Source: Planctomycetota bacterium (GTDB lineage: Bacteria; Planctomycetota; UBA1135; UBA2386). Taken from it: 64,000 nt of DNA. The notes beneath the pieces are model-generated. The model was given only the letters and a program-made list of their open reading frames with translations, was not told where the DNA came from and did not search any database. This document shows positions 4,116 through 39,295 of the stretch, one piece after another (within the stretch, counting starts at the first letter, position 1; every line of letters begins with the position of its first letter). The DNA is taken from the NCBI GenBank assembly GCA_025459175.1, contig JALORC010000004.1:1-64000 (forward strand), written 5' to 3'. Position numbers and translations under genes: made by a program.

Positions 4116-4370
4116 ATGATCGTCGCCACGCTGCTCGTTGCTGGTCTGAACTTCGCCAGTCCGTCCGCATCCACTCTGCCGCAGATCACCCCCCAGGGCG
4201 TGCCTGCCAAGCCCCCGGCGCCGGTCATCCCGACGGCCCCGATCCGCGGTTCCATGCCGGTCTCCGGCGGCACCCCTGAGCCCGCGTCGATGTTGCTGCT
4301 GGTCGGCGGTGCGCTCGGCTACGGCGCCCACCGGCTGCGTCGCGCTCGTTCGGAATCGTCCGCGAAGTGA
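4116..4370 (+). CDS. Small PEP-CTERM sorting domain protein (84 aa)
   Basis: N-terminal signal-like MIVATLLVAGLNFASPSAS, Pro-rich middle, C-terminal GGTPEPASMLLLVGGALGYGAHRLRRARSE (PEP motif + TM + basic tail); directly precedes an exosortase. Confidence 0.8.
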   Translation: MIVATLLVAGLNFASPSASTLPQITPQGVPAKPPAPVIPTAPIRGSMPVSGGTPEPASMLLLVGGALGYGAHRLRRARSESSAK

Positions 4371-5830
4371 CGGCAGGAGTCGGTCGCGCACTGGCCGCCA
4401 CCCTGGCGGCGGTCGCCTTGCTGTGGTCCTGCCGGGAAGCGCTCGCGAGCTACCTGCTGGATCAGCACTACCAGGAGCACTTCCTCTACCTCTGGGTGTT
4501 CCTGTGCCTGGCGCTGGCGAAGACGCTGCGCCCCCCGTTCCGGGCCGGTTTCGACCCGGGGCTCGGTCGGGATCGCCTCGGACTGGCGATCGTGGCCGCC
4601 GGCTGGCTGTCCTACGCGATCAGCCAAGCCGTTGGCTCGAGCGCCATCGAGCGCACCTCGCTGGTGATCGGCATCACCGGCGTCGGTGTGCTGGCCGTGC
4701 CCGGTTGGACGGTTCGCCGCTGCCTGCAGCACGGCGCCTTGATGTTGCTCTGCTTCGGTCTGCCCTACTCCGTCTACTTCCCGTTGACGGCGCGCATGCA
4801 GTGGGGAGTCGCTCAGTGCATCGCCCTGCCGGCGCGGTTCGGCTGGGTCGACTACATCGTCGACGGGCCGGTCGTGCAGTTCCCAGGCTACCAGCTGTCG
4901 ATCACCCCCGACTGCTCCGGGCTCGGACAGTTGCTCACCTTTCTCGGCATCGCCGCGCTCGGCATCCTCGGTGGGGTCGGCAGCTGGCGTCGCAGTGCCG
5001 TGCTCCTGGCGGCGGCGGTCCTGCTGGCGTGGGTCTCCAACGTGGCCCGGGTCGCGTTGTTCGTCGCGTTGATCGCGTGCGGGTGGACCGCTTCGGTCAA
5101 TGACCCGAACTGGCATGCGGCGCTCGGCTTCCTGGTGTTCCTGCCGTTCGTCACGCTGCTGATCGGCCTCGTCCTGCGGACCCATGTCGCGCTGCCGTCG
5201 CCGGCGCCGACTGCGGTCCCCGCGGGGCGCTGGCCGATCGCGATCCTGGTGTTGCCGGTGCTGGCCGCGCACCTCTACTACACCGGCCTCGCCGAGCCTG
5301 AGTTCCCCGCTCCCGACCACTTCGCCCGCATCGAGCAGCCGCCGGGTCACCACCTCGAACAGCGCGCACCCAGCGAAGCGGACGATCGCGTCAGCTACGG
5401 CACGCGTTGGCTGGTCAATGCGCGCTTCCGGGCCGCGGATGGCAGCAGCTTCGACCTGTTCCACTACGCGACCCGCTCCCGCAGCCACCTCAGTGTGCAC
5501 AAGATCGCCGCGTGTCTGGGCGTCGAGGACCGGCGGGTGCGCTACGAGCCGCCGGTCCGGATCGATGGGCGCAGCTGGTGGCCGATCGGTCTGGACCACG
5601 ACGACCCGTCGCGGGCAGCCCACGTCTACTTCGCGTTCGAGGTCGGCGGTCGCCGGCTCGATGACTCGCCCGCCACGCAGTTCGCCGTGTTCTGGCAGCG
5701 CCTGACCGGTGGCTCATGGGAGGTGCGGTTGACCCGGGTCATGTTGCCCGGGGCGCTACCGGCCACGCCGACGGAGCACGAACGCAGGGTGCTCGGTTGG
5801 CTCGCCGGACTGACCGACGCCGAGGGCTGA
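4367..5830 (+). CDS. Exosortase family protein with C-terminal soluble domain
   Basis: Multi-TM protein with exosortase triad: PDCSGL (Cys), SNVARVALFV (Arg), NWHAALGF (His). GTG start overlaps the previous stop (GTGA). Confidence 0.86.
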   Translation: MTAGVGRALAATLAAVALLWSCREALASYLLDQHYQEHFLYLWVFLCLALAKTLRPPFRAGFDPGLGRDRLGLAIVAAGWLSYAISQAVGSSAIERTSLVIGITGVGVLAVPGWTVRRCLQHGALMLLCFGLPYSVYFPLTARMQWGVAQCIALPARFGWVDYIVDGPVVQFPGYQLSITPDCSGLGQLLTFLGIAALGILGGVGSWRRSAVLLAAAVLLAWVSNVARVALFVALIACGWTASVNDPNWHAALGFLVFLPFVTLLIGLVLRTHVALPSPAPTAVPAGRWPIAILVLPVLAAHLYYTGLAEPEFPAPDHFARIEQPPGHHLEQRAPSEADDRVSYGTRWLVNARFRAADGSSFDLFHYATRSRSHLSVHKIAACLGVEDRRVRYEPPVRIDGRSWWPIGLDHDDPSRAAHVYFAFEVGGRRLDDSPATQFAVFWQRLTGGSWEVRLTRVMLPGALPATPTEHERRVLGWLAGLTDAEG

Positions 5831-6048: not shown

Positions 6049-6942
6049 ATGTGCGGCCCCATTCTCGCGATGTCCCTCGGGAAGCCACTCACCGAAGCAG
6101 CTGCTCCGACCGCCTCCTGCGCGTCGGCTGCCGCCTCGTCGGGCAGTGCGCTGGTCGCGAGTTCTGCAGATCCTTCCTCGGAGCTGCCCAGGGTCCCGAT
6201 CGGCGATGTGATGGTGCACGCGATTCGCGAGGCCGAATGCGTCGACCACGTGATGAAGCAGCTGGCGGCGGGCCGCGGCGGTTGGATCGCGACCGTCAAC
6301 CTCGACCACCTCTGGCGACTGCGGCGCTGCCCGCAGTTTGCGGCGGCCTACCGGGAAGTGACCGTGGTCGTCGCCGATGGCACGCCGCTGGTTTGGGCCA
6401 GCAGGCTGCAGGGTGCACCGGTGCCAGAACGGGTGGCTGGCTCCGACCTGATCCACAGCCTGACCAAGGCGGCCGGTGCGCGCGGTAGGCGAGTGTTCCT
6501 GCTCGGCGGCAATCCCGGCACCGCCGACGCCGCCGCTGCGCGCCTGCAGGCAGCGTCCCCGGGGTTGGTGATCGCCGGCACGTGTTGTCCGGAACTCGGC
6601 TTCGAGAAGAGCCCGGCGCGCATGGCGGAGTTGCGCCAGCAGCTCGCCTCCGCGCGCCCCGACATCGTCTTCGTCGCCCTCGGAGCCCCCAAGCAGGAGC
6701 TGTTCATCCAGACGGCTCGTGACGTGCTGCCGCAGGCCTGGTGGATCGGTGTCGGCATCAGCTTCAGCTTCGTGGCCGGCGAGATCCAGCGGGCCCCGCG
6801 CTGGGTGCAGCGGCTCGGGCTCGAGTGGGTGCACCGGTTGTGCCAGGAGCCGCGACGGCTGTGGAGCCGCTACCTGTGGCATGGCCCGCCGTTCGCGGCG
6901 AGATTGTTCGCGCAGTCGCTCTGGCGCCGACTGCGATCCTGA
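6049..6942 (+). CDS. WecG/TagA/CpsF family glycosyltransferase
   Basis: TVNLDHLWRLRRCPQF, VADGTPLVWASRL, VFLLGGNPGTADAAAARL, VALGAPKQELFI, GVGISFSFVAGEIQRAPRWVQRLGLEW. Confidence 0.87.
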   Translation: MCGPILAMSLGKPLTEAAAPTASCASAAASSGSALVASSADPSSELPRVPIGDVMVHAIREAECVDHVMKQLAAGRGGWIATVNLDHLWRLRRCPQFAAAYREVTVVVADGTPLVWASRLQGAPVPERVAGSDLIHSLTKAAGARGRRVFLLGGNPGTADAAAARLQAASPGLVIAGTCCPELGFEKSPARMAELRQQLASARPDIVFVALGAPKQELFIQTARDVLPQAWWIGVGISFSFVAGEIQRAPRWVQRLGLEWVHRLCQEPRRLWSRYLWHGPPFAARLFAQSLWRRLRS

Positions 6943-7001: not shown

Positions 7002-7982
7002 ATGAAGCCGAGCGTCGTTCCCAGCGAAGTCCCAGCAGTTGCGGCCCCGGAAACCATGGGGAAGGTCGTGCTGATCTCGCCGTGCCGCAACGAGCAGGAC
7101 TACATGCGCAAGACGCTGGAGTCGGTGGTCGGCCAGACCCATCCGCCGGCGCTCTGGGTAGTGGTCGACGACGGGTCCACCGATGCGACGCCGGCGATCC
7201 TGGCCGAGTATTGCGCGCGCTATCCGTTCCTGCGGGTCGTGCGGCGTGAGGATCGCGGCAAGCGCAGCGTCGGCCCTGGTGTGATCGAGGCGTTCTACGC
7301 CGGCCTCGACACCGTCGACCTCGGCCAGTTCGAGTTCGTCTGCAAGTTCGACCTCGACCTCGAACTGCCGCGCACCTACTTCGAGCAGGTGATCGCGCGC
7401 ATGCGCGCCGAGCCGCGACTGGGCTCGTACAGCGGCAAGCCCTTCTACCGCGACGAGCACGGCCAGGAGCAGCCGGAGTGGTGCGACGACGAGATCGTGG
7501 TCGGCATGATCAAGTTCTACCGCGTCGATTGCTTCCGACAGATCGGCGGCTTCGTGCGGCAGGTGATGTGGGACGGCATCGACAGCCATCGCTGCCGCAT
7601 GCTCGGCTGGATCGCGCGCAGCACCGGCGACCCGGCGCTGCGGTTCGAGCACCTGCGGCCGATGGGTTCGAGTGACCAGAACGTGCTGCGCGGCCGCCGG
7701 CGCCACGGACTGGGGCAGTACTTCATGGGGACGTCGTTCGCCTATCTGGCGGCCAGCGTCCTGCGGCGGCTGTTCCAGCCGCCGTACGTGATCGGTGCGC
7801 TGGCGATGTTGCAGGGCTATCTCGGCGCCTGGTGGCGCGGCGAACCACGCTACGACGACCCGACCTTCCGCAGCTTCCTCCGCCGCTATCAGTGGGGTGC
7901 GATGTTCCGCGGCAAGCGCCGCACGATCGAACGGATCGAGCGTGAGATGGAGCCGGTCTGGGCGGCGCGCCATGAACGCTGA
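7002..7982 (+). CDS. Glycosyltransferase family 2 protein
   Basis: VVLISPCRNEQDYMRKTLESVVGQTHPPALWVVVDDGSTDATPAI nucleotide-sugar-binding signature. Confidence 0.87.
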   Translation: MKPSVVPSEVPAVAAPETMGKVVLISPCRNEQDYMRKTLESVVGQTHPPALWVVVDDGSTDATPAILAEYCARYPFLRVVRREDRGKRSVGPGVIEAFYAGLDTVDLGQFEFVCKFDLDLELPRTYFEQVIARMRAEPRLGSYSGKPFYRDEHGQEQPEWCDDEIVVGMIKFYRVDCFRQIGGFVRQVMWDGIDSHRCRMLGWIARSTGDPALRFEHLRPMGSSDQNVLRGRRRHGLGQYFMGTSFAYLAASVLRRLFQPPYVIGALAMLQGYLGAWWRGEPRYDDPTFRSFLRRYQWGAMFRGKRRTIERIEREMEPVWAARHER

Positions 7983-8045: not shown

Positions 8046-9443
8046 ATGACCGCTCTGGCCCATCTGGCGTTGTTCGGTTGGATCCCGCTCGTGCTGGTGG
8101 CGTTCCTGTTCCTGCAGCCGCGGGTCGCCGTCATCGCCGCGCTGGCCGCCGGCAGCCTGTTGCTCCCGGTGTTGAGCATCCCCGTCCCGGGGCCGCTCGA
8201 CTTCGGCAAGCCGGAGGTCATCTGCGCCGCGGTGCTGATCGGCATCATCTGCTTCGACCCGCGCCGCTTGCTCGAGTACTGGCCCGACGCCATCGACGTG
8301 TTCTGGTTCACCTGGATCGCCGCCGGTGCGCTGTCGTCGTTGTCGAACGACCTCGGCGGCTACGACGCCTTCTGCGTGCTGTTGTCGCGCCTGCTGCTGT
8401 GGGGAGTGCCATACCTGGTGGGGGTGCTCTACCTCGGGACGCGCGCCGGCCTGTGTTCGATGCTGTGGGTGCTGTTCCTGTCCGGGCTCGCCTACGTGCC
8501 GCTGTGCCTGTTCGAGGTGCGGATGAGTCCGCAGCTGCACTACATGGTCTATGGCATGGCGCAGCACGCGTTCGACCAGACGATCCGTGGCGGTGGCTAT
8601 CGGCCGATGGTCTTCATGGCGCACGGGCTCGAACTGTCGCTGTGGATGGGGGCTGCCACCGTCGCCGGCTACGCGTTGTGGCGCACTTCGGCCACCGGCC
8701 GGGTGCAAGGCTTCCGCCTGGGACCGTTGGTGGCGTTGGTCGGCGTCACGCTGGTGCTGTGCAAGTCGACCGGCGCGATCTTCCTGACCGGACTCGGGCT
8801 GCTGCTGTTGTCGCCGCTGGCCCTGCCGTGGCTGCGGTTGGCCGTGCTGCTGGGCATGTTCGCCTACCTGCTGCTGCGGATGTTCGGCGACGGCGCGCTG
8901 GAGAACCTGTTGTTCGAGGTCTCCTCGCTGGTCTCCGAGGAGCGCGCCGGCTCGTTGAAGTTCCGCTTCGACAACGAGGCGATCCTGCTCGATCGGGCGT
9001 GGCAGCGGCCCTGGCTCGGCGCCGGTGGCTGGAACTTCGGCAGCCTGTCGGACCCCGAGACCGGGGAGCCGATACCGGTGACCACCGACAGCTACTGGAT
9101 CATCGCCATGGCGACCAGCGGCTTCCTCGGCTGCGTCGGCCTGGTCGGCGGGTTCTGGTCGTCGGTGTTCCGGTTCGAGGTGTCGGTGCTTCGCGAACGT
9201 CTGCAGCCGCTGGTCGAGCTGACTGCCGCCTCGGTCATCACGCTGATGATCCTCGCCGACAGCCTGGTCAATGCGTTCATCCCGCCGCTCTACGTCGCCA
9301 TCGCCGTCGGTCTCACCCGTGCGGCGTCCGGGGACGGTCCGGTAGTGGCTCCGCTGCGGGTGCCGTTCCTGCGGCCGCGATCGGCCGCCGGCGGTCTGCA
9401 GCCGCGGGTGCCGTCGGGGCGACCATGGCGCGCCGATGGATGA
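8046..9443 (+). CDS. O-antigen ligase/polymerase-like membrane protein
   Basis: Polytopic hydrophobic protein in a polysaccharide locus; LARRWLELR-type region replaced by RAWQRPWLGAGGWNFG, consistent with the Wzy_C-like family. Confidence 0.65.
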   Translation: MTALAHLALFGWIPLVLVAFLFLQPRVAVIAALAAGSLLLPVLSIPVPGPLDFGKPEVICAAVLIGIICFDPRRLLEYWPDAIDVFWFTWIAAGALSSLSNDLGGYDAFCVLLSRLLLWGVPYLVGVLYLGTRAGLCSMLWVLFLSGLAYVPLCLFEVRMSPQLHYMVYGMAQHAFDQTIRGGGYRPMVFMAHGLELSLWMGAATVAGYALWRTSATGRVQGFRLGPLVALVGVTLVLCKSTGAIFLTGLGLLLLSPLALPWLRLAVLLGMFAYLLLRMFGDGALENLLFEVSSLVSEERAGSLKFRFDNEAILLDRAWQRPWLGAGGWNFGSLSDPETGEPIPVTTDSYWIIAMATSGFLGCVGLVGGFWSSVFRFEVSVLRERLQPLVELTAASVITLMILADSLVNAFIPPLYVAIAVGLTRAASGDGPVVAPLRVPFLRPRSAAGGLQPRVPSGRPWRADG

Positions 9444-9624
9444 GCCACGGGCAGGTCGGAGGTGGGGCTCGCGACCGTTCGCGACGAGCCGAACCGTCGA
9501 TGCCAACGCCATTCCGTGCGCGCCCTGCCCGACTCAAGTGGGCGCGTCCGCCGGCCGATACCCGGCCCTGTATCGCTCTCGCCGGGACCGTTCTTGCGAG
9601 CGCAGGTCTCATCGAAGGACAACC

Positions 9625-11652
9625 TTGATTCGTCTTCCTAGCGGTGCCTCGCGTCCGTCTCTGGACCATCTCTCGTTCGGGCTCCTGCTGCTGCTGGCAG
9701 GATGTGGTTCCGGCGGGGAGGCCCGCAGCGGTGGATCCGGCGACGTGGCCTACATCGAAGTGGCCGCCGGTGACGCCTCGTTCACGCTCCAGGCCGGCGC
9801 CACCACGGCGCTGCCGTCCCATTCCTGGTTGATGAGCAACCCGAGTGCGGCGACCTACTTCTTCGAACTGCGTGTCGATCAACCGTGGGTGGTGCTGCAG
9901 ACGCCGGCGTCGGGCAGCATCGCCCCGCTGCAGGGTGCTTCCGTCACCGTCAGTCTGAGCAGCTCCGAACTCGCTGGCCTGGCGGTCGGCAACCACACGG
10001 CGACGATCCAGTTCCGCAACGCCAACGGCGACGTGGTCGACGCGACCCGCACCATCAGCCTGACCCTCACCGAGGAACCGCCGCCGCCGCCGCCGCCGCC
10101 TCCGCCGCCGCCGCCTCCGCCCCCGGGCGGTGGATCCGGTGGTGGCACATCCACGGCCGGTTGGACCCAGCTGGCGCCGAGCTCGGACAGCCTGGTGGTC
10201 TACGTCAGCAGCTCGCAGGGCAACGACGCCAACAATGGCCTCACCGAGCAGACGCCCAAGCGCACCTTGAATGCCGCCAAGGCACTGCTGCGCGACGGCT
10301 TCCCGGACTGGATGCGCCTGAAGAAGGGCGATGTCTGGAACGAGGGCATCGGCAGCTGGAGCAAGCGGGGACGCAGCATCACCGAGCCCCAGGTCATCAC
10401 CAGCTATGGCACCGGCGCGCGGCCGCTGCTGAGCACCGGCGGCCTGGGTGCGGTGTCGGGATCGACCGCGGGCATCAAGCCGTTCCTGGCCATCACCGAC
10501 CTCCATTGTCGAGGTCGTGAGGGCGCGCCGACGAGCAACCCGGTCGCGTTCTTCTTCCTGTCGCCGGTCGAGGGCCTGCTGATCGAAGGCTGCATGATCG
10601 AGCGCTACAACGTCGGCATCGTCGTGCAGGGCTTCGACGGCAGGTTCCGCAACGTGCGGTTGCGTCGCAACGTGATCGTCGACCAGTACTCGACCGACGT
10701 CGCGCACTCGGCCGGCACCTACCTTTCCAACATCGACGACCTGCTGATCGAGGGCAACATCTTCGACCGCAACGGTTGGATCCCGGGTGTGCCCGAGGCA
10801 ACGCCACCGACGGTGTTCCGTCATCACATCTACATCCAGACCGACTGCACGAACTCGACGGTTCGTGGCAACTACCTGCTCAACTCGACCGCCAACGCCC
10901 TGTCGCAGCGCTCGTACGGTGTGGTCGAGGACAACATCTGCGCCCGCAACTCGATCGCGCTGCTGTTGATCGGCAACGGTGGCGGTACCGGCATCGTGCG
11001 CCGCAACATCGTGATGGACGGCAAGGACATCGATACCGCCAACCCGCGTGGCTGGGGCATCGACATCAAGATGGTCACCAACGGCGTCGTCGCCGACAAC
11101 CTGATCACCAACAACACCGGCGGCACGTTCCCGATCGCGATGCTGATCGACACACCGGGTGGAGCCATCAACGGGCTGCGTATCGAGCGCAACGTGTTCC
11201 ACAACTGGCGCGGCGGTATCCGGGTCAACGGCAACGGCTCGGCGCTCACCAACGTGCGCCTGATCGACAACCACATGCAGGACGTGTTCATGACCGCGCC
11301 GTTGCTCGTGCACGTCGAGACGAGCACCGTGGCCTCGATCATCGAGTCGCGCGGCAACCGCCTGCACCGGCAGCTGGGCTCGGTGAACTGGATCGCGAAC
11401 GGCCCGACCGAGATCTCGCCGTCGCAGTGGTGGGGTCAGCTCGGCGACACCACCTCGACGATGCAGCAGGTCGCCTACACGAATGCGGGTCGCAACCTGG
11501 CGACCTATCACGAGTCGCTCGGCAAGACCGCGACGCTCGACGCGTTCATCACCGAGTTGCGCAAGCAATCGAAGGACAACTGGCGCGTCGACTACGACCA
11601 GGCGACCGTCGCCACCTGGATCCGCGCCGGCTACAACATGACCGTCCAGTGA
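9625..11652 (+). CDS. Lipoprotein with BACON-like domain, polyproline linker and right-handed beta-helix domain
   Basis: FGLLLLLAGCGSGG lipobox; Ig-like repeat (PWVVLQTPASGSIAPLQGASVTVSLSS); P16 linker; multiple beta-helix coils (RNVIVDQ, GNIFDRNG, GNYLLNS, DNLITNN, RNVFHNW). TTG start proposed. Confidence 0.72.
   Translation: MIRLPSGASRPSLDHLSFGLLLLLAGCGSGGEARSGGSGDVAYIEVAAGDASFTLQAGATTALPSHSWLMSNPSAATYFFELRVDQPWVVLQTPASGSIAPLQGASVTVSLSSSELAGLAVGNHTATIQFRNANGDVVDATRTISLTLTEEPPPPPPPPPPPPPPPPGGGSGGGTSTAGWTQLAPSSDSLVVYVSSSQGNDANNGLTEQTPKRTLNAAKALLRDGFPDWMRLKKGDVWNEGIGSWSKRGRSITEPQVITSYGTGARPLLSTGGLGAVSGSTAGIKPFLAITDLHCRGREGAPTSNPVAFFFLSPVEGLLIEGCMIERYNVGIVVQGFDGRFRNVRLRRNVIVDQYSTDVAHSAGTYLSNIDDLLIEGNIFDRNGWIPGVPEATPPTVFRHHIYIQTDCTNSTVRGNYLLNSTANALSQRSYGVVEDNICARNSIALLLIGNGGGTGIVRRNIVMDGKDIDTANPRGWGIDIKMVTNGVVADNLITNNTGGTFPIAMLIDTPGGAINGLRIERNVFHNWRGGIRVNGNGSALTNVRLIDNHMQDVFMTAPLLVHVETSTVASIIESRGNRLHRQLGSVNWIANGPTEISPSQWWGQLGDTTSTMQQVAYTNAGRNLATYHESLGKTATLDAFITELRKQSKDNWRVDYDQATVATWIRAGYNMTVQ
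10078..10127 (+). repeat. CCG-rich trinucleotide repeat encoding a polyproline linker
   Basis: (CCG)n/(CCT) tract encoding 16 consecutive prolines. Confidence 0.9.
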
Positions 11653-11686: not shown

Positions 11687-13633
11687 TCACATGCGCAGGC
11701 CGTGGCGCTGGCACCAGCGCAGCAGCACGAACACCGCCCAGATGCGCGACCAGTACATCCCGGGCGCCTGCTGCAGGAACGAGCGCCACAGCCGCCCGAC
11801 GGTGTCGTGATCGAGGCCCGCTGCGGCGCAGGCCGCGCGGTCGGCCAGCACCTCGGCGACGCCGTCCTTCAGGCGTTGCCGGCACCAGAGTTCCATCGGC
11901 AGCGCGAAGCCTGACTTCGGCCGGTCGAACACCTCGGGCGTGACCTTGCCGAGCGCCAGTTCGCGCAGCAGCATCTTCCGGCCGAGCGGCTCGAACCGGC
12001 GCACCGCGTCGACGCCGGCCGCGGCCTCCACGACGCGGTGATCGAGCAGCGGCACGCGCACCTCGAGCGACACCGCCATGCTGGACCAGTCGGTGTCGCG
12101 CAGCAGCCGTTCGCCGAGGAAGCTCTGTTGCTCCAGCAGCGACACCGCGTGCAGCGACGGTTGGTCGGCGACGAGTTCTCGCAACTCGGTGGCGCGTTCG
12201 TGCGGCAGGCCGAGCCAGGTGGTCTGCGGCCGTCCTTCGCGCAGTCGACGATGGATGTCAGCGGTGAACAGCGCGTAGTGGGTCTGGTACGCGCACAGCA
12301 GGCTGCCGTCGCCGTCGAGCACGTCGCCGAGCTTGCCCCACCGGGTCTGCGGTGGCACCTCGCCGAAGCGCCCCATGCGCCAGCGGGCGGCGGCGCCAGC
12401 TGCGGCCCGGCGCAGTCCGGCTGGCACCCATCGCGTCGTGCGGGCCGCTCGTGCGGCCCGCGGCACGTCGACGAAGCTGCGGTAGCCACCGAACAGTTCG
12501 TCGCCGCCCGTGCCCGCCAGCGCCACCGTCATGCCGTGGTCGCGCACCGCTCGGCTGACGAACCAGCTGTTGATGCCGTCGAAGGTCGGTTGGTCCATCG
12601 CCGCCAACGCGGCCTCGATGCCGTCACCGAAGGCCTGTTCCGTGAGCCGGATGTCCTTGTGCTCGGTGCCGAGTTGCCGCGCCACCTCGATGGCGTGCTT
12701 CGACTCGTCGTAGGCCGCTTCGTCGAACGAGATGTTGAACGTGCGCAGCGAGCCGGCCCCGGCTGGAGAGAGTTCCGCGGCCATCGCCGCGATCGCGCTC
12801 GAGTCGACGCCACCCGAGAGGAACACGCCGAGCGGGACGTCGGCGAGCAGGTGCTGGCGGATCGACGTCTGCAGTTCGTGACGCAGCGTGTCGACCGCGG
12901 CCGGCCCCGGGACCGCATTGCGTGCGCTCGGCGGCTGCCAGTAACGACGTGGTGTGAACGTCGGGTCGTCGGGGTCGATCCGGCACCAGGTGCCGGGCGG
13001 CATCAGCTCGACGCCGGCGACCAGGGTGTGCGGGCCGATCGTGAAGCCGTGCCACAGGTAGCTGTCGACGGCGACCGGGTCGAGCGTTCGCCCGGTGCAA
13101 CCGGAGGCGAGCAGCGAGCGCAGTTCCGAGGCGAACACGAGCCGTCGCTTGCCGTCCGCTGCGGCGCCAACGGTGACATACAGCGGCTTGATGCCGAGCC
13201 GGTCGCGCGCCATCAGCACGGTCCGGCTGCCGGCATCCCAGATCACGAAGGCGAACATGCCGCGCAACCGATCGAGCACACCCTCGCCCCAGCGGCGGTA
13301 ACCGGCCAGCACCACTTCGGTGTCGCTGCGCGAGGCGAACCGGACCCCGGCCGACTCGAGCTCCTGCCGCAGCTCCAGGAAGTTGTAGATCTCGCCGTTG
13401 AAGACGATGCAGTTGCCCGTCGACGGGTCGTGCATCGGCTGGTGGCCATGGCCCGACACATCGAGGATGGCGAGGCGGCGGAAGCCGAAGGCGGCACCGG
13501 CCGATCCGGTCGGCCCGGATTGCCAGGCGCCATCGTCATCCGGGCCACGGTGCCGCTGGCTCTTGCTGGCGGCATCGACGGCCGCGATCAGGGTCGGGCT
13601 CAGCGAGCCGATGGCGCCGGCGATACCGCACAT
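11687..13633 (-). CDS. asnB: Asparagine synthase (glutamine-hydrolyzing)
   Basis: MCGIAGAIG with Cys2 nucleophile; GQPMHDPSTGNCIVFNGEIYNFLELR; synthase motif GVFLSGGVDSSAIAAMAAEL. Confidence 0.95.
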   Translation of the reverse strand: MCGIAGAIGSLSPTLIAAVDAASKSQRHRGPDDDGAWQSGPTGSAGAAFGFRRLAILDVSGHGHQPMHDPSTGNCIVFNGEIYNFLELRQELESAGVRFASRSDTEVVLAGYRRWGEGVLDRLRGMFAFVIWDAGSRTVLMARDRLGIKPLYVTVGAAADGKRRLVFASELRSLLASGCTGRTLDPVAVDSYLWHGFTIGPHTLVAGVELMPPGTWCRIDPDDPTFTPRRYWQPPSARNAVPGPAAVDTLRHELQTSIRQHLLADVPLGVFLSGGVDSSAIAAMAAELSPAGAGSLRTFNISFDEAAYDESKHAIEVARQLGTEHKDIRLTEQAFGDGIEAALAAMDQPTFDGINSWFVSRAVRDHGMTVALAGTGGDELFGGYRSFVDVPRAARAARTTRWVPAGLRRAAAGAAARWRMGRFGEVPPQTRWGKLGDVLDGDGSLLCAYQTHYALFTADIHRRLREGRPQTTWLGLPHERATELRELVADQPSLHAVSLLEQQSFLGERLLRDTDWSSMAVSLEVRVPLLDHRVVEAAAGVDAVRRFEPLGRKMLLRELALGKVTPEVFDRPKSGFALPMELWCRQRLKDGVAEVLADRAACAAAGLDHDTVGRLWRSFLQQAPGMYWSRIWAVFVLLRWCQRHGLRM

Positions 13634-13801: not shown

Positions 13802-14527
13802 ATGGCCGTGAATTCGATCTCCCGTTGGTGGTGGGTGGTGCTGTCGCTGGCGCTGGCATCGTGCTCCGCGACCGGTTACCAGATCGCGGATCTGGCCGCC
13901 GAGATCAACGCGACACGCGACGCCGGCCGCACCCTGGTCGCCCCGGGCGACACGATCCGCCTGACCTTTCCGTACAAGCTGGAATGGAACCAGACGGTGT
14001 TGGTCCGCAGCGACGGCTACGCGACCTTCTATGCCGTCGACGACGTCGCGGTCGCCGGTCTGAAGCTGGCGGACCTGGATGCGCGCCTGTCGGCGCTCTA
14101 CGTCAAGCTGGCGGTGCCGAACGCGGACCAGTTGACCGTCGACATCACCCAGCCGGCGTCGCCGTCGAGTGCGGGGGCCGGTGGTGAGAGCATGTTCGTG
14201 GTCGGTGAGGTCGAGCGGCCGGGTCCGATCGTGCTGGCCGGGCGTTCGATGACCCTGTTCGAGGCGATCGCCGCCGCCGGTGGCCACCGGAAGGCCTCGG
14301 CCAACCTGCACAACACGATCCTGGTCCGGCGCCTCGCCTCGGGCGAGATGCGTTCCTGGCGGCTCGATGCCGATATCTATCGCTGGGGTCGGCAGCCGCC
14401 GATCTACCTGCAACCGCGCGATGTCGTGTTCGTGCCGAACACCGCAGTCGACGAGGTCAACATCTGGGTGGACAAGTACATCCGCCAGATGATCCCGCTG
14501 CCGACCCTGTTCCCGCCCGCTGGCTGA
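13802..14527 (+). CDS. Polysaccharide export outer-membrane lipoprotein (Wza/SLBB-like)
   Basis: LALASCSATG lipobox; GDTIRLTFPYKLEWNQTVLVRSDGYATF; SLBB segment MFVVGEVERPGPIVLAGRSMTLFEAIAAAGG. Confidence 0.85.
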   Translation: MAVNSISRWWWVVLSLALASCSATGYQIADLAAEINATRDAGRTLVAPGDTIRLTFPYKLEWNQTVLVRSDGYATFYAVDDVAVAGLKLADLDARLSALYVKLAVPNADQLTVDITQPASPSSAGAGGESMFVVGEVERPGPIVLAGRSMTLFEAIAAAGGHRKASANLHNTILVRRLASGEMRSWRLDADIYRWGRQPPIYLQPRDVVFVPNTAVDEVNIWVDKYIRQMIPLPTLFPPAG

Positions 14528-16794
14528 TGTGCGACGACATGGAAACCGAAACTCGACCTGCCAACCAGACCGGCCGTACCCTGCTGCCGGTGATGCTGGC
14601 CGGGATCTGGCGACACCGAGGTTGGGTGATCGCGGCGATGATGGTCGGTGGCGCGTTCGGGGTGTTCCGCGCCGTGGTCACGCCGAGCCAGTATCGATCG
14701 AGCGGCAAGCTGTTCGTGCGACCTGGCGTGCGCGAGAACATGCAGCCGGATGCGGCCTTCGCGGGTGGCGGCAGCAATGCCTCGCGCATGTCCGGGAGCC
14801 GTGAGGCCATCCTCACCGAGATGCAGGTGCTGTCGTCGCCGGACCTGTTCGACCTGGTGGTCGAGGACATCGGTCCCGACGAGATCCTGGCGCCGTTCGA
14901 GCCGCCCCCCGCTGGCCCCGGTGGGACCTCCTGGCACGCAGGCCTGATGCACTCGTTCCAGCGCTGGTGGTTCGGCTCCGGCGAGGTGCCGGGCCAGGGC
15001 GACAAGGAGCAGCGCTTCCGTGCCGCCAGCGCGTTGCTGTTCCGCACCGTGATCATCGTGCCGGAGGCCGGCACCAGCGTGATCACCGTCTATTACGTGT
15101 CGAGCTCTCCGGAGCGCGCGCGCACCGTCGTCGACGGCGTGCTCGAGGCGGCACAGAAGAAGCACCAGATCACGTTCGAGGGGATGTCGGGCGTCGCCAA
15201 GGTCGAGGACGAGCTCCGTACCAACGAGAAGCTCGCGGTCGAGGCCGAGACGGCATTGCGTGAGTTCAAGCGGGACAAGGGCATCTACGACTTCCATTCG
15301 CAGCAGGGTGCCTTGCAGTCCTACCTGAGCGACCTCGATCGCCAGATCGACACCATCGATCTCGATACCAAGCGGCGTCTCTCCGAGAAGCAGGCCCTGG
15401 ACCTGATGCTCCCCAAGATCCCGCCGGAGCGCATCGCCCCCGGCTCGGACTCGTTCGTGGTCAACCCGGACTACGAGATGTTCAGTCAGCAGCTGAACCA
15501 CCTGCGGGAGTCGGATCTCGCGCTGGAGTATGCTCGCAACGTCACCATCAGCGGTCCGGCCTACGAGAATCGCAAGCGGGACCTCGCCGGCCGTATCGCG
15601 ATCCTCGAAGCTCGACTGGAAACCGAGAAGAAGCAGATCAAGCTGGACGGTTCGATCGAGAAGAACCCCGAGTACGCGCGGGTCGAGTCGCGGCTGGCCG
15701 ACATCGAGGTGGAACTCAAGGGGCTCGAGTCGCAGCGGACGCAGGTGGACAATCTCCGCAAGTCGCAACGCAAGGCGTTCGAGTCGCTGGAGGCCCTGGC
15801 GCCGTCGTTCCGGGAGCTGGATCTCGATGCGAAGCAGAAGCGGGCGACGGCAGATCGGCTCGCCGAGCACGTCTTCAACATGAAGGCCGTGCAGCGGCTC
15901 GAGCAGCTCAACTTGAGCAACATCCAGGTCATGCAGTCCGGCTCGCTGGAGCCCGACAAGATCGCGCCGCGCCGCACCTGGCTGGTGACCATCGGCGTGT
16001 TCTTCGGGGCGGCGTTCGGCCTCGCCATGACCGCGCTCTGGTCGCTGTTCGACTCGAAGGTGCGGATCGCCGCTGACGTGAAGCGGCTCGGCATCCCGCC
16101 GCACCAGACGCTGATCGGGCGGGTCGACAGCGATGCGCCGGGCCCAGGCTCGCGGGTGCCGGTTGCGTTCGCCGACCTTCGCAGCGACATCGCCCACTTC
16201 TGGGCGGCGCTGCCGTACGAGCGCGGCACCAAGGACGGCCTGAAGATCGCGTGTCTCGCCTGCGGCGATGCCATGGCCGGGCGGGCCACGGCGGCGATGG
16301 CGCTCGGCCTCGCCATTCACGGCGGCGAGCGTGTTGCCCACGTCACGACTTCGCCGTCGGCGTCCTGGCTGGCGGTGCGCCTGGGGCTGTCGCCGCGGCG
16401 CGGTTGGAGCGAGGTGGTGGCCGGCAAGGCGCGCGCCGCCGACGTGGCGACACCGACCGCCGTTGCCGGGCTGGACCACTTCGGCATCGGTGAATGGCGC
16501 GGTGAAGGCGCCCCGGTGCCAGGTCCTGCGTTCCTCGAGTTCCTCGCCGAGCTGAGCCGCTCCTATCGCTTCGTGGTCATCGAACTGCCGGACCTCGAGA
16601 TCGATCCGTCGGGTCGTTCGGTGCTCGGTGCGATCGACGGCGTGCAGCTGGTGGTGCGTTCGGCCAGGTGCCGGAAGGGCGACTTCCGGCGCGCGATGCT
16701 GGCCGTCGCTGCGTCCGGCTGCCGTCTGCTCGGTTGCATCCTGCAGCCGGAGACCGGCGTCGAGAACAAGCCGGCCAAGGTCGCGTCGTCGTGA
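14527..16794 (+). CDS. Wzz-type chain-length/polysaccharide co-polymerase with C-terminal BY-kinase-like domain lacking catalytic motifs
   Basis: N-terminal TM + Wzz region, long coiled coil, second TM (TWLVTIGVFFGAAFGLAMTAL), then P-loop-like fold with degenerate motifs; TGATG overlap with the upstream gene. Confidence 0.84.
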   Translation: MCDDMETETRPANQTGRTLLPVMLAGIWRHRGWVIAAMMVGGAFGVFRAVVTPSQYRSSGKLFVRPGVRENMQPDAAFAGGGSNASRMSGSREAILTEMQVLSSPDLFDLVVEDIGPDEILAPFEPPPAGPGGTSWHAGLMHSFQRWWFGSGEVPGQGDKEQRFRAASALLFRTVIIVPEAGTSVITVYYVSSSPERARTVVDGVLEAAQKKHQITFEGMSGVAKVEDELRTNEKLAVEAETALREFKRDKGIYDFHSQQGALQSYLSDLDRQIDTIDLDTKRRLSEKQALDLMLPKIPPERIAPGSDSFVVNPDYEMFSQQLNHLRESDLALEYARNVTISGPAYENRKRDLAGRIAILEARLETEKKQIKLDGSIEKNPEYARVESRLADIEVELKGLESQRTQVDNLRKSQRKAFESLEALAPSFRELDLDAKQKRATADRLAEHVFNMKAVQRLEQLNLSNIQVMQSGSLEPDKIAPRRTWLVTIGVFFGAAFGLAMTALWSLFDSKVRIAADVKRLGIPPHQTLIGRVDSDAPGPGSRVPVAFADLRSDIAHFWAALPYERGTKDGLKIACLACGDAMAGRATAAMALGLAIHGGERVAHVTTSPSASWLAVRLGLSPRRGWSEVVAGKARAADVATPTAVAGLDHFGIGEWRGEGAPVPGPAFLEFLAELSRSYRFVVIELPDLEIDPSGRSVLGAIDGVQLVVRSARCRKGDFRRAMLAVAASGCRLLGCILQPETGVENKPAKVASS

Positions 16795-18206: not shown

Positions 18207-19139
18207 ATGGTTCCCGACCTCTCGATCGTCGTGCTGTCGTGGAACACGGCGGACCTGCTGCATGCTTGCCTGCGGTCGCTCCAGGCGGACAGCTCGGCGC
18301 TGACACGTGAGATCATCGTCGTCGACAATGCGAGTGCCGATCGTTCGGCCGACATGGTGGCAGAACGGTTCCCGGCCGCGAAGCTGATCCGCAATCCTGC
18401 CAACCTCCTCTACTCGGAGGGCAACAACATCGGGGCGCGGGCGGCGAGCGGGCGGTTCCTGTGTTTGCTGAACTCGGATACCGAAGTGTCGCCCGGTGCG
18501 CTCGATCAGTTGGTCGGATACCTGCAGCAGCACTCCGACTGTGGGATGGTCGGACCGAAGCTGGTGAATCCGGATGGCAGTGTGCAGACCGGTTGCCGTC
18601 GGTTCCCGACCCTGGCGGAGGCTTTCTGGGCGTGGGGCTGGCTGCGGCGGACCGGGCCTGGCCGGCGCGCCGAGGCCAGGGCGCGCATGCAGGATTTCGA
18701 TCACCTGACCAGCCGCGACGTCGAGCAGCCGCTCGGTGCCTGCATGATGTTGCACCGCGAGGAGTTCCTGCGCCTGGGTGGGCTCGATCCGGTGTTGAGC
18801 CTGTTCTACAACGACGTCGACCTCTGCCTGCAGCTGGCGCACCGCGGTCGACGGGTGCACTACCTCGCATCGGCGGTGGTGATGCACCATCACGGCGCGT
18901 CGACCAAGAAGCGCGTGGAGGAGTTCGGCAGTCCGCTGTGGAACTCCAATCGCATCGCGTTCTATCGCAAGCATCACGGCTGGCTCGCGGCGCTCGCCGT
19001 GCGCGGCATGCTCTTGCTGTCGCTGGTCTGCATGTTCTTCCGCATCCTGCTCGGCCGGCGCAGCTGGGCCGAGAAACGTGAGGTGCTCGGGCGGTTCCGG
19101 ACGTTCGCGTCCCGCAGCCTCCGGGGAGGCCGCTCGTGA
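18207..19139 (+). CDS. Glycosyltransferase family 2 protein (rhamnosyltransferase-like)
   Basis: LSIVVLSWNTADLLHACLRSLQ; IVVDNASADRSADMV; LLNSDTEVSPGAL; ACMMLHREEFLRLGGLDPVLSLFYNDVDLC. Confidence 0.88.
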   Translation: MVPDLSIVVLSWNTADLLHACLRSLQADSSALTREIIVVDNASADRSADMVAERFPAAKLIRNPANLLYSEGNNIGARAASGRFLCLLNSDTEVSPGALDQLVGYLQQHSDCGMVGPKLVNPDGSVQTGCRRFPTLAEAFWAWGWLRRTGPGRRAEARARMQDFDHLTSRDVEQPLGACMMLHREEFLRLGGLDPVLSLFYNDVDLCLQLAHRGRRVHYLASAVVMHHHGASTKKRVEEFGSPLWNSNRIAFYRKHHGWLAALAVRGMLLLSLVCMFFRILLGRRSWAEKREVLGRFRTFASRSLRGGRS

Positions 19140-37567: not shown

Positions 37568-39295
37568 ATGCTGCACACCTTACATATCCAGAACATCGCC
37601 TTGCTGGAGCGCGCCGAGCTCCGGCTCGCCGAAGGGCTGACGGTGATCTCCGGCGAAACCGGCGGCGGCAAGTCGCTGCTGATCCGCGCGCTCGAGCTGC
37701 TGCGCGGCGAGAAGATCCCCGGCTCGCTGGTTCGCCACGGCGCCGACGAACTGCAGGTCGACGGCGAGTTCCGGCTCGGCACCGGCGAACGCAGCGTCAC
37801 CATCGCGCGGCTGGTGCACGACCTGTGCGGCGGGGTGGTCGAGGACGATCTGCTGCTGGTGACCCGCATCGTCGATCGCCTGGGACGCACCCGCTGCCGG
37901 ATCGGTGGCCGGCCGGCGACGCTGTCGGCGCTGCGCGAGGTCGGCGCGATGCTGCTCGAGATCCACGGCCAGGGCGACTCGCGCGCGCTGATGCGGCCCG
38001 AGACGCAGTGCGAGACGCTCGACGCGTTCGCCAACACGAGTCCGCTGCGGCGCGAGTTCGCGCAGGCGCTGCAACACGCGCGCGCGCTGCAGCAGCGGCT
38101 GCGTTCGTTGACCGACGGCGAACGCGAACGGCGGCAGCGGCTCGAGTTCCTGCGCTTCCAGCACCAGGCGATGAGCGAGCTGCAGCTCGGCGAGGGCGAG
38201 CTCGCCGAGCTCGAGCAGGAGCACCAGCTGCTCGGCAACCTCGACGGCATGCGCCAGCAGCTCGACGAGGCGCTCGAGGTGATGCAGGACGGCGAGGACA
38301 ACGTCGGCGACCAGGTGGCGCGCGCGCTGCGCGCGGTGCAGGGTGCGGCGGCGATCGATCGCCGGCTCGAGGAAGCCGCCGAACAGTTGGCGCAGATCGA
38401 CGAGCTGGTGGCCGACGTGTGCCGCAAGCTGCAGTCGGGCCAGGCCCGGCTCGATCTCGATCCGGCGCGCATGCAGGCGGTGCAAGAACGGCTCGACGAA
38501 GTGCACACCGCGCTGAAGCGCTTCGGGCCGACCGAGGCCGATCTGCGGCGCAACCTCGCCAAGGTCGCGGCCGAGCTCGCCGCCGCCGAGGGCAAGGACA
38601 GCGATCCGGCGCTGCTGGCGGCCGAGCTGCAGCAGGCCACCGAGGCCGCGGCCGCCGTCGGGCGCAAGCTGCTGCGCGCGCGGCACAAGGCGGCGGGGCC
38701 GTTCAGCAAGGCGATCGTCGCCGAACTGAAGGATCTCGGCATGCCGCACACCGAGGTGCGGGTGGCGATGGCGACCGAGTTCGAGGTGGCGACGCTGCTC
38801 CAGCACGCCAACGAGCACGGGCCGGTGCCGGTCGATCTCGAGGTGCGCATCAACCCCGGCGAGCCGTTCCACTCGATGCGCGACACCGCGTCCGGCGGCG
38901 AACTGGCGCGCATCGTGCTGGCGGTCAAGAAGACGCTGGCCGACCAGGATCGGGTGCCGCTGCTGGTGTTCGACGAGATCGATGCCGAGATCGGCGGGCG
39001 GCTCGGGCTCGCGGTCGGCAAGAAGCTGCACGAGGTGGCGCGCCATCATCAGGTGGTGATCGTCACGCACCTGGCGCCGGTGGCGGCGTTCGCACAGCAC
39101 CACTTCCTGGTCAACAAGCTGGTCGACGGCACCGGCAGCGACGAACGCACGCGATCGAGTGTGCGGCTGCTGGCGGCGAACGAGGTCGAGCGCGAGCTGG
39201 CGGCGATGGCGATCGGCGATGGTGCGGATGCGGCGGCGCTGCAGCAGGCGGCGCGGTTGGTGGCGACGGCGAAGGCGCGGGCGGCGGCTGGCTGA
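37568..39295 (+). CDS. recN: DNA repair protein RecN
   Basis: MLHTLHIQNIALLERAELRLAEGLTVISGETGGGKSLLIRALELL; long coiled coil; DTASGGELARIVLAVK; VFDEIDAEIGGRLGLAVGKKL. Confidence 0.93.
   Translation: MLHTLHIQNIALLERAELRLAEGLTVISGETGGGKSLLIRALELLRGEKIPGSLVRHGADELQVDGEFRLGTGERSVTIARLVHDLCGGVVEDDLLLVTRIVDRLGRTRCRIGGRPATLSALREVGAMLLEIHGQGDSRALMRPETQCETLDAFANTSPLRREFAQALQHARALQQRLRSLTDGERERRQRLEFLRFQHQAMSELQLGEGELAELEQEHQLLGNLDGMRQQLDEALEVMQDGEDNVGDQVARALRAVQGAAAIDRRLEEAAEQLAQIDELVADVCRKLQSGQARLDLDPARMQAVQERLDEVHTALKRFGPTEADLRRNLAKVAAELAAAEGKDSDPALLAAELQQATEAAAAVGRKLLRARHKAAGPFSKAIVAELKDLGMPHTEVRVAMATEFEVATLLQHANEHGPVPVDLEVRINPGEPFHSMRDTASGGELARIVLAVKKTLADQDRVPLLVFDEIDAEIGGRLGLAVGKKLHEVARHHQVVIVTHLAPVAAFAQHHFLVNKLVDGTGSDERTRSSVRLLAANEVERELAAMAIGDGADAAALQQAARLVATAKARAAAG

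Follow-up and report, generated by a model that had tools for sequence, protein, structure and literature searches.

A divergent planctomycete exosortase encoded beside a very small PEP-CTERM protein, its putative dedicated substrate

Among described systems, the closest point of comparison for the locus considered here is provided by the exosortases of the EpsH/XrtA type and their PEP-CTERM targets (TIGR02602, TIGR02595, PF07589 and PF09721). In the model proposed for exosortases, the target enters by means of a signal peptide, is anchored by a C-terminal helix, is cleaved by the cysteine of the enzyme and is transferred to a periplasmic nucleophile (PMC1569441), and the final acceptor is not known for this class of enzymes (PMC1569441, PMC12188702). 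Another point of reference is the dedicated sorting system, a single target encoded beside its enzyme, which was defined for rhombosortase/GlyGly-CTERM (PMC3237569). Likewise, the flavobacterial XrtF, as cited in PMC12188702, is a variant exosortase encoded next to a partner gene and is linked to biofilm formation. The window studied here (the whole stretch of 64,000 nucleotides of planctomycete DNA that was analysed) shares with the EpsH/XrtA type the enzyme family with its Cys, Arg and His residues, the tripartite tail of the target and the surrounding EPS genes (Wza, a chain-length determinant, asparagine synthase and glycosyltransferases). However, whereas EpsH/XrtA-type enzymes have many larger, unlinked targets each, here the one or two targets are tiny, linked and marked by the distinct tail GGTP[EA]P, and the enzyme lies under the cut-offs of TIGR02602 and of every subtype model. 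From XrtF, whose targets are not known as far as the citing article relates, it differs in that the neighbour of the exosortase itself bears a sorting tail. With the rhombosortase systems it shares the co-localisation rule, one target beside one enzyme, and since such an arrangement is by definition a dedicated system, the principle is already known. What is unusual, apart from the enzyme being an exosortase instead of a rhomboid protease, is that the target has no functional domain and is cut down to signal, linker and tail, that a separate general exosortase system coexists, and that the enzyme clade is claimed by no NCBIfam subtype model.

The putative dedicated substrate is an 84-aa protein, MIVATLLVAGLNFASPSASTLPQITPQGVPAKPPAPVIPTAPIRGSMPVSGGTPEPASMLLLVGGALGYGAHRLRRARSESSAK, encoded on the plus strand at 4116-4370, with the ATG at 4116 being the sole possible start that follows the preceding in-frame stop and still lies ahead of the hydrophobic segment. 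This N-terminal segment (residues 1-19; 4116-4172) is a putative Sec signal peptide of uncertain cleavage site, recognised by its hydrophobic peak and a crude -3/-1 rule only, and is short and devoid of a basic n-region. It is followed by a Pro-rich linker (residues 20-52; 4173-4271), which is predicted to become the mature peptide and contains a QG and a GG that are conserved in our alignment of the mini-proteins, and by a PEP-CTERM sorting tail (4272-4367) comprising TPEP, a hydrophobic helix (about 4284-4328) and a basic end. With these three elements the tail scores above the curated cut-offs of both PF07589 (21.4 versus 20.7 bits) and TIGR02595 (17.5 versus 16 bits). An earlier note on this DNA had described an 84-aa ORF whose PEP-CTERM tail overlaps the exosortase start by GTGA, and its positions and overlap were confirmed; that it noticed no other such tail in the window agrees with this protein being the sole match over cut-off on the whole contig. 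Similarly, its estimate of about 35 Pro-rich residues left after processing agrees with the 32-33 residues that we count from a plausible signal peptide to TPEP (9 of 32 being Pro).

The adjoining gene (4367-5830, plus strand) codes for an exosortase of 487 aa from a divergent clade. Its GTG start codon at 4367 lies in a GTGA (4367-4370) held in common with the stop of the mini-ORF at 4368-4370. The enzyme exceeds the cut-offs of PF09721 (67.7 versus 25.7 bits) and TIGR04178 (43.9 versus 23), and falls below those of TIGR02602 (63 bits against 105.55) and of all named subtypes in NCBIfam 20 (XrtA, XrtB, XrtD, XrtV, XrtW, XrtZ and others), the best subtype scores being 54 against 400 bits for XrtD and 44 against 208 for XrtA. 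The catalytic residues C183 (4913-4915), R228 (5048-5050) and H250 (5114-5116) are aligned and invariant across 20 exosortases. The protein ends in a C-terminal domain of about 200 aa that matches no NCBIfam or Pfam family, EpsI (TIGR02914) included, and in hhalign this domain weakly resembled (E 0.011, probability 3.8%) the EpsI-like C-terminus that the main exosortases have. An AlphaFold2 model from a 4-sequence alignment was poor (pLDDT 63.8), and sequence and fold searches of the PDB returned nothing usable. The closest named relatives come from Planctomycetota MAGs, one of them labelled Phycisphaerales. In the exosortase tree the five window-type enzymes form a single 100/100 clade on a long branch, with about 20% identity to the general ones.

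These five enzymes come from five of the 154 genomes of the class, all carriers of the pair belonging to one family; they span four genera (by the labels of the tool used) and are 36-53% identical. One or two tiny ORFs lie directly upstream of the exosortase in every one of the five, the host included. The four other carriers have one or two mini-ORFs of 68-92 aa with the tail GGTP[EA]P: a single one of 72-92 aa immediately upstream in G149, G122 and G130, and two in tandem (81 and 68 aa) in G128, whose exosortase is 40% identical; their starts were chosen by hand as the ATG before the hydrophobic segment. The earlier note had proposed to check whether the small ORF is conserved beside exosortases of this subtype; it is so in all four, and because the orthologues occupy the same place the mini-ORF is not a chance reading frame. 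The five orthologous mini-ORFs and the window copy all score over the TIGR02595 cut-off, and all six have a hydrophobic N-terminus. In their alignment (A1) Q27-G28, GGTP-P, two Leu, G64, Y69 and R73 are invariant, and the linker between the conserved ends is hypervariable. The codons of the tail show 30, 23 and 67 differences, of 138 each, at positions 1, 2 and 3, with the third position varying most, which is a purifying-type pattern. An A1 profile search of the 154 genomes, in which the best first-look candidates per genome were scored, recovered six sequences at 71 bits or more, all adjoining window-type exosortases, and no seventh copy, the next best scoring 31.4 bits; as the six are the profile's own seeds, the informative part is that there were no further copies. 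Nor did 395 evenly sampled genomes of the phylum yield a further relative, in a sample that need not include every carrier. Start and stop overlap or are separated by at most 6 nt in four genomes, with gaps of 2 nt in G122 and 6 nt in G149, and in G130 an overlapping start (TTGA) is likewise available. From the overlap we infer translational coupling of mini-ORF and exosortase. A sigma-54 promoter like that of floc-forming PEP-CTERM genes was considered for the pair and rejected: the best upstream matches were mostly no better than shuffled sequence and their positions were not shared.

In the window the pair stands at the head of a stretch of EPS genes. On the plus strand these are a WecG/TagA/CpsF glycosyltransferase (6049-6942; PF03808), a family 2 glycosyltransferase (7002-7982; PF00535), a Wzy_C/O-antigen ligase-like membrane protein (8046-9443; PF04932), a 43% identical homologue of which adjoins the pair in G122, and a right-handed beta-helix protein (9436-11652; PF13229); an asparagine synthase-type amidotransferase follows on the minus strand (11687-13543, start estimated from the domain match; PF00733, PF13537). 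Further along, again on the plus strand, are a Wza-type polysaccharide export protein (13802-14527; PF02563) and a Wzz/Wzc-like chain-length determinant with a kinase-like C-terminus (14527-16794; TIGR03007 at E 1.2e-17, below cut-off), both with homologues in G122, and another family 2 glycosyltransferase (18207-19139; PF00535). In G122 the Wzy, Wza and chain-length homologues lie within about 13 kb. A 2127-aa ORF with an N-terminus that by eye is polyketide synthase-like (L056, 6130-12513) is situated there between the exosortase/Wzy and the Wza/chain-length genes. The flanks examined in G149, G130 and G128 hold no homologues of the window's EPS genes, so that such genes flank the pair in two of the five genomes. 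The link to adjacent EPS genes that the earlier note drew accordingly holds, as gene neighbourhood, for the window and G122 and was not found in the flanks of the other three. The absence of such homologues from three loci indicates that the pair behaves as a two-gene unit able to sit outside such loci, and that dependence of the product on the EPS of neighbouring genes is not the rule.

The host assembly is a MAG of 7.55 Mb, 93.75% complete and 5.78% contaminated. Contamination of the window contig was considered and dismissed: RecN at 37568-39292 is 76-85% identical to that of congeners, which makes the contig resident. Genome-wide there are six PEP-CTERM matches over cut-off and two exosortases. 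Besides the window protein, the matches are on C206, C64, C23 (two) and C84, of which the last two are short contigs. Those of C206 (116 aa as read) and C64 (110 aa) are small PEP-CTERM proteins and are resident, since counterparts occur in many family members. The two ordinary PEP-CTERM proteins of C23 (2.8 kb; L001) are probably foreign contaminants, as the ClpB of this contig is an extra copy beside ClpB-type paralogues common to congeners, and C84 (7.9 kb), with one match of similarly ordinary tail, is suspected to be foreign from its tail type only. The second exosortase, of C140, is only about 20% identical to the window enzyme and lies at a separate locus; it exceeds the cut-off of TIGR02602, resembles EpsI (below cut-off) at its C-terminus and, by eye from the translations, has glycosyltransferase-like, polysaccharide-deacetylase-like and asparagine-synthase-like neighbours. 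It is an ordinary exosortase in its own EPS locus. The family's general system comprises about two PEP-CTERM proteins per genome, many of them small. One recurrent form is the C206 protein (L002, about 5005-5355, minus strand), with a lipobox-like N-terminus (e.g. LAACADHSG), a linker that is mostly rich in Gly and a tail of the form VPEP[GS]T, and with counterparts across the family (L036, L038, L039, L043, L045, L047, L049-L051 and L054); judged by eye, it is possibly both lipidated and exosortase-sorted. The C64 protein (L004, 5590-5922, plus strand) represents a second family-wide form (L035, L037, L040, L042, L044, L046, L048, L052 and L053), which in L040 seemingly has about 8-11 residues between signal peptide and tail.

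The sorting tails of the family are of two types, GGTP[EA]P for the window type and VPEP/VPQP for the general type. They are 33-35% identical between types, as against 62% among window-type tails and 66-73% within the general set of the same family, and leave-one-out profiles assign all 27 of 27 tails to the correct type. Shared descent contributes to this separation, which hence supports orthogonality without proving recognition; the likeness of the orthologous tails could itself reflect descent rather than recognition by the enzyme. Window-type tails number one per window-type exosortase in four genomes, with the tandem pair in G128. The one-substrate system proposed by the earlier note therefore stands for this exosortase type, for which no other tail was found, and not for the genome, which also has the C140 enzyme and the C206 and C64 proteins; given the incompleteness of the MAG and the scoring of best candidates only, further substrates may have been missed. 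What that note had named as telling against its proposal, dozens of PEP-CTERM proteins and a small ORF that is not conserved, contrasts with the six matches and conserved mini-ORF observed.

Taken together, we favour, at a probability of roughly 70%, the reading that exosortase and mini-substrate in the window form a dedicated cassette that exists alongside a general system, with a short envelope- or EPS-linked peptide as its end product. Relatives that have retained the pair possess the separate general system as well, so that it looks like a private enzyme-substrate pair, and from sequence we infer that the 84-aa protein is the cognate substrate of the adjacent exosortase. It would enter the Sec pathway and shed its signal peptide, with the C-terminal helix keeping it anchored and TPEP facing the periplasm. 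The exosortase would then cut the tail with its cysteine, freeing a disordered Pro/Gly-rich peptide of roughly 20-40 residues that would probably be passed on to a nucleophile in the periplasm, either a glycan or a lipid belonging to the envelope or EPS. Rather than being an enzyme, such a peptide might be a small link or tag, perhaps the carrier, primer or anchor suggested by the earlier note, and the close spacing of the genes would keep substrate and enzyme in step.

The strict coupling to the enzyme, the near lack of a mature domain and the tandem mini-ORFs of G128 would suit a small membrane partner that is not cleaved and acts as an assembly factor, regulator or inhibitor, filling the active site of the exosortase by imitating a substrate tail. 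We consider this unlikely, as the mini-protein has cleavable-looking sites in its N-terminal hydrophobic segment and a complete tail over cut-off, and these genomes yielded no other protein with a window-type tail that the enzyme could process. It is a little harder still to regard the exosortase as a general enzyme that is redundant and acts on the remaining PEP-CTERM proteins of the host too, with the adjacency being historical: both sorting signals do have the architecture of PEP-CTERM and fall within a single broad family, but most relatives in the family carry the other PEP-CTERM proteins with a single exosortase, of the main type, and the tail types separate fully. Finally, the freed peptide might be not an envelope link but a secreted signal or inhibitor matured by the adjoining membrane cysteine protease, formally like AgrD/AgrB. 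A tiny precursor with a hypervariable core between conserved ends, adjoined by a dedicated membrane cysteine peptidase, fits this proposal; however, an unsystematic look beside the pair recognised no receptor kinase, immunity gene or exporter, and studies of exosortase systems have so far dealt with EPS and surface proteins (PMC12188702), making the proposal quite improbable.

The dedicated cassette that we prefer can be compared with the definition in PMC3237569: the genes are side by side at all five loci and a single target is found, with the tandem of G128 stretching the definition. Elsewhere in the class, small PEP-CTERM ORFs also occur beside other exosortase types (L016, L017, L019, L023, L024, L031 and L032), with clusters of three tiny ones near the exosortase in L017 and L024; from the coordinates, the genes at most of these loci converge rather than overlap. 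A different dedicated-looking arrangement, in which the PEP-CTERM tail ends a long protein beside the exosortase, is seen in L018, L020, L021, L022, L029, L030, L033 and L034.

A natural, movable two-gene unit with a mature peptide of 20-40 residues is a good handle on the exosortase acceptor, since the small size of the product makes direct mass spectrometry of its C-terminal modification feasible, and the two tail types within one genome allow a clean test of exosortase specificity. More broadly, and as a rather doubtful conjecture, the exosortase product in this planctomycete lineage may be a minimal peptide link, made as signal, disordered linker and tail, whose new C-terminus is joined to an EPS or envelope acceptor. 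The window pair would then provide a private channel, orthogonal to that of the general system, and the unlinked, lipobox-like C206 version would form a lipid-peptide-polysaccharide tether, comparable in principle to Braun lipoprotein though serving EPS.
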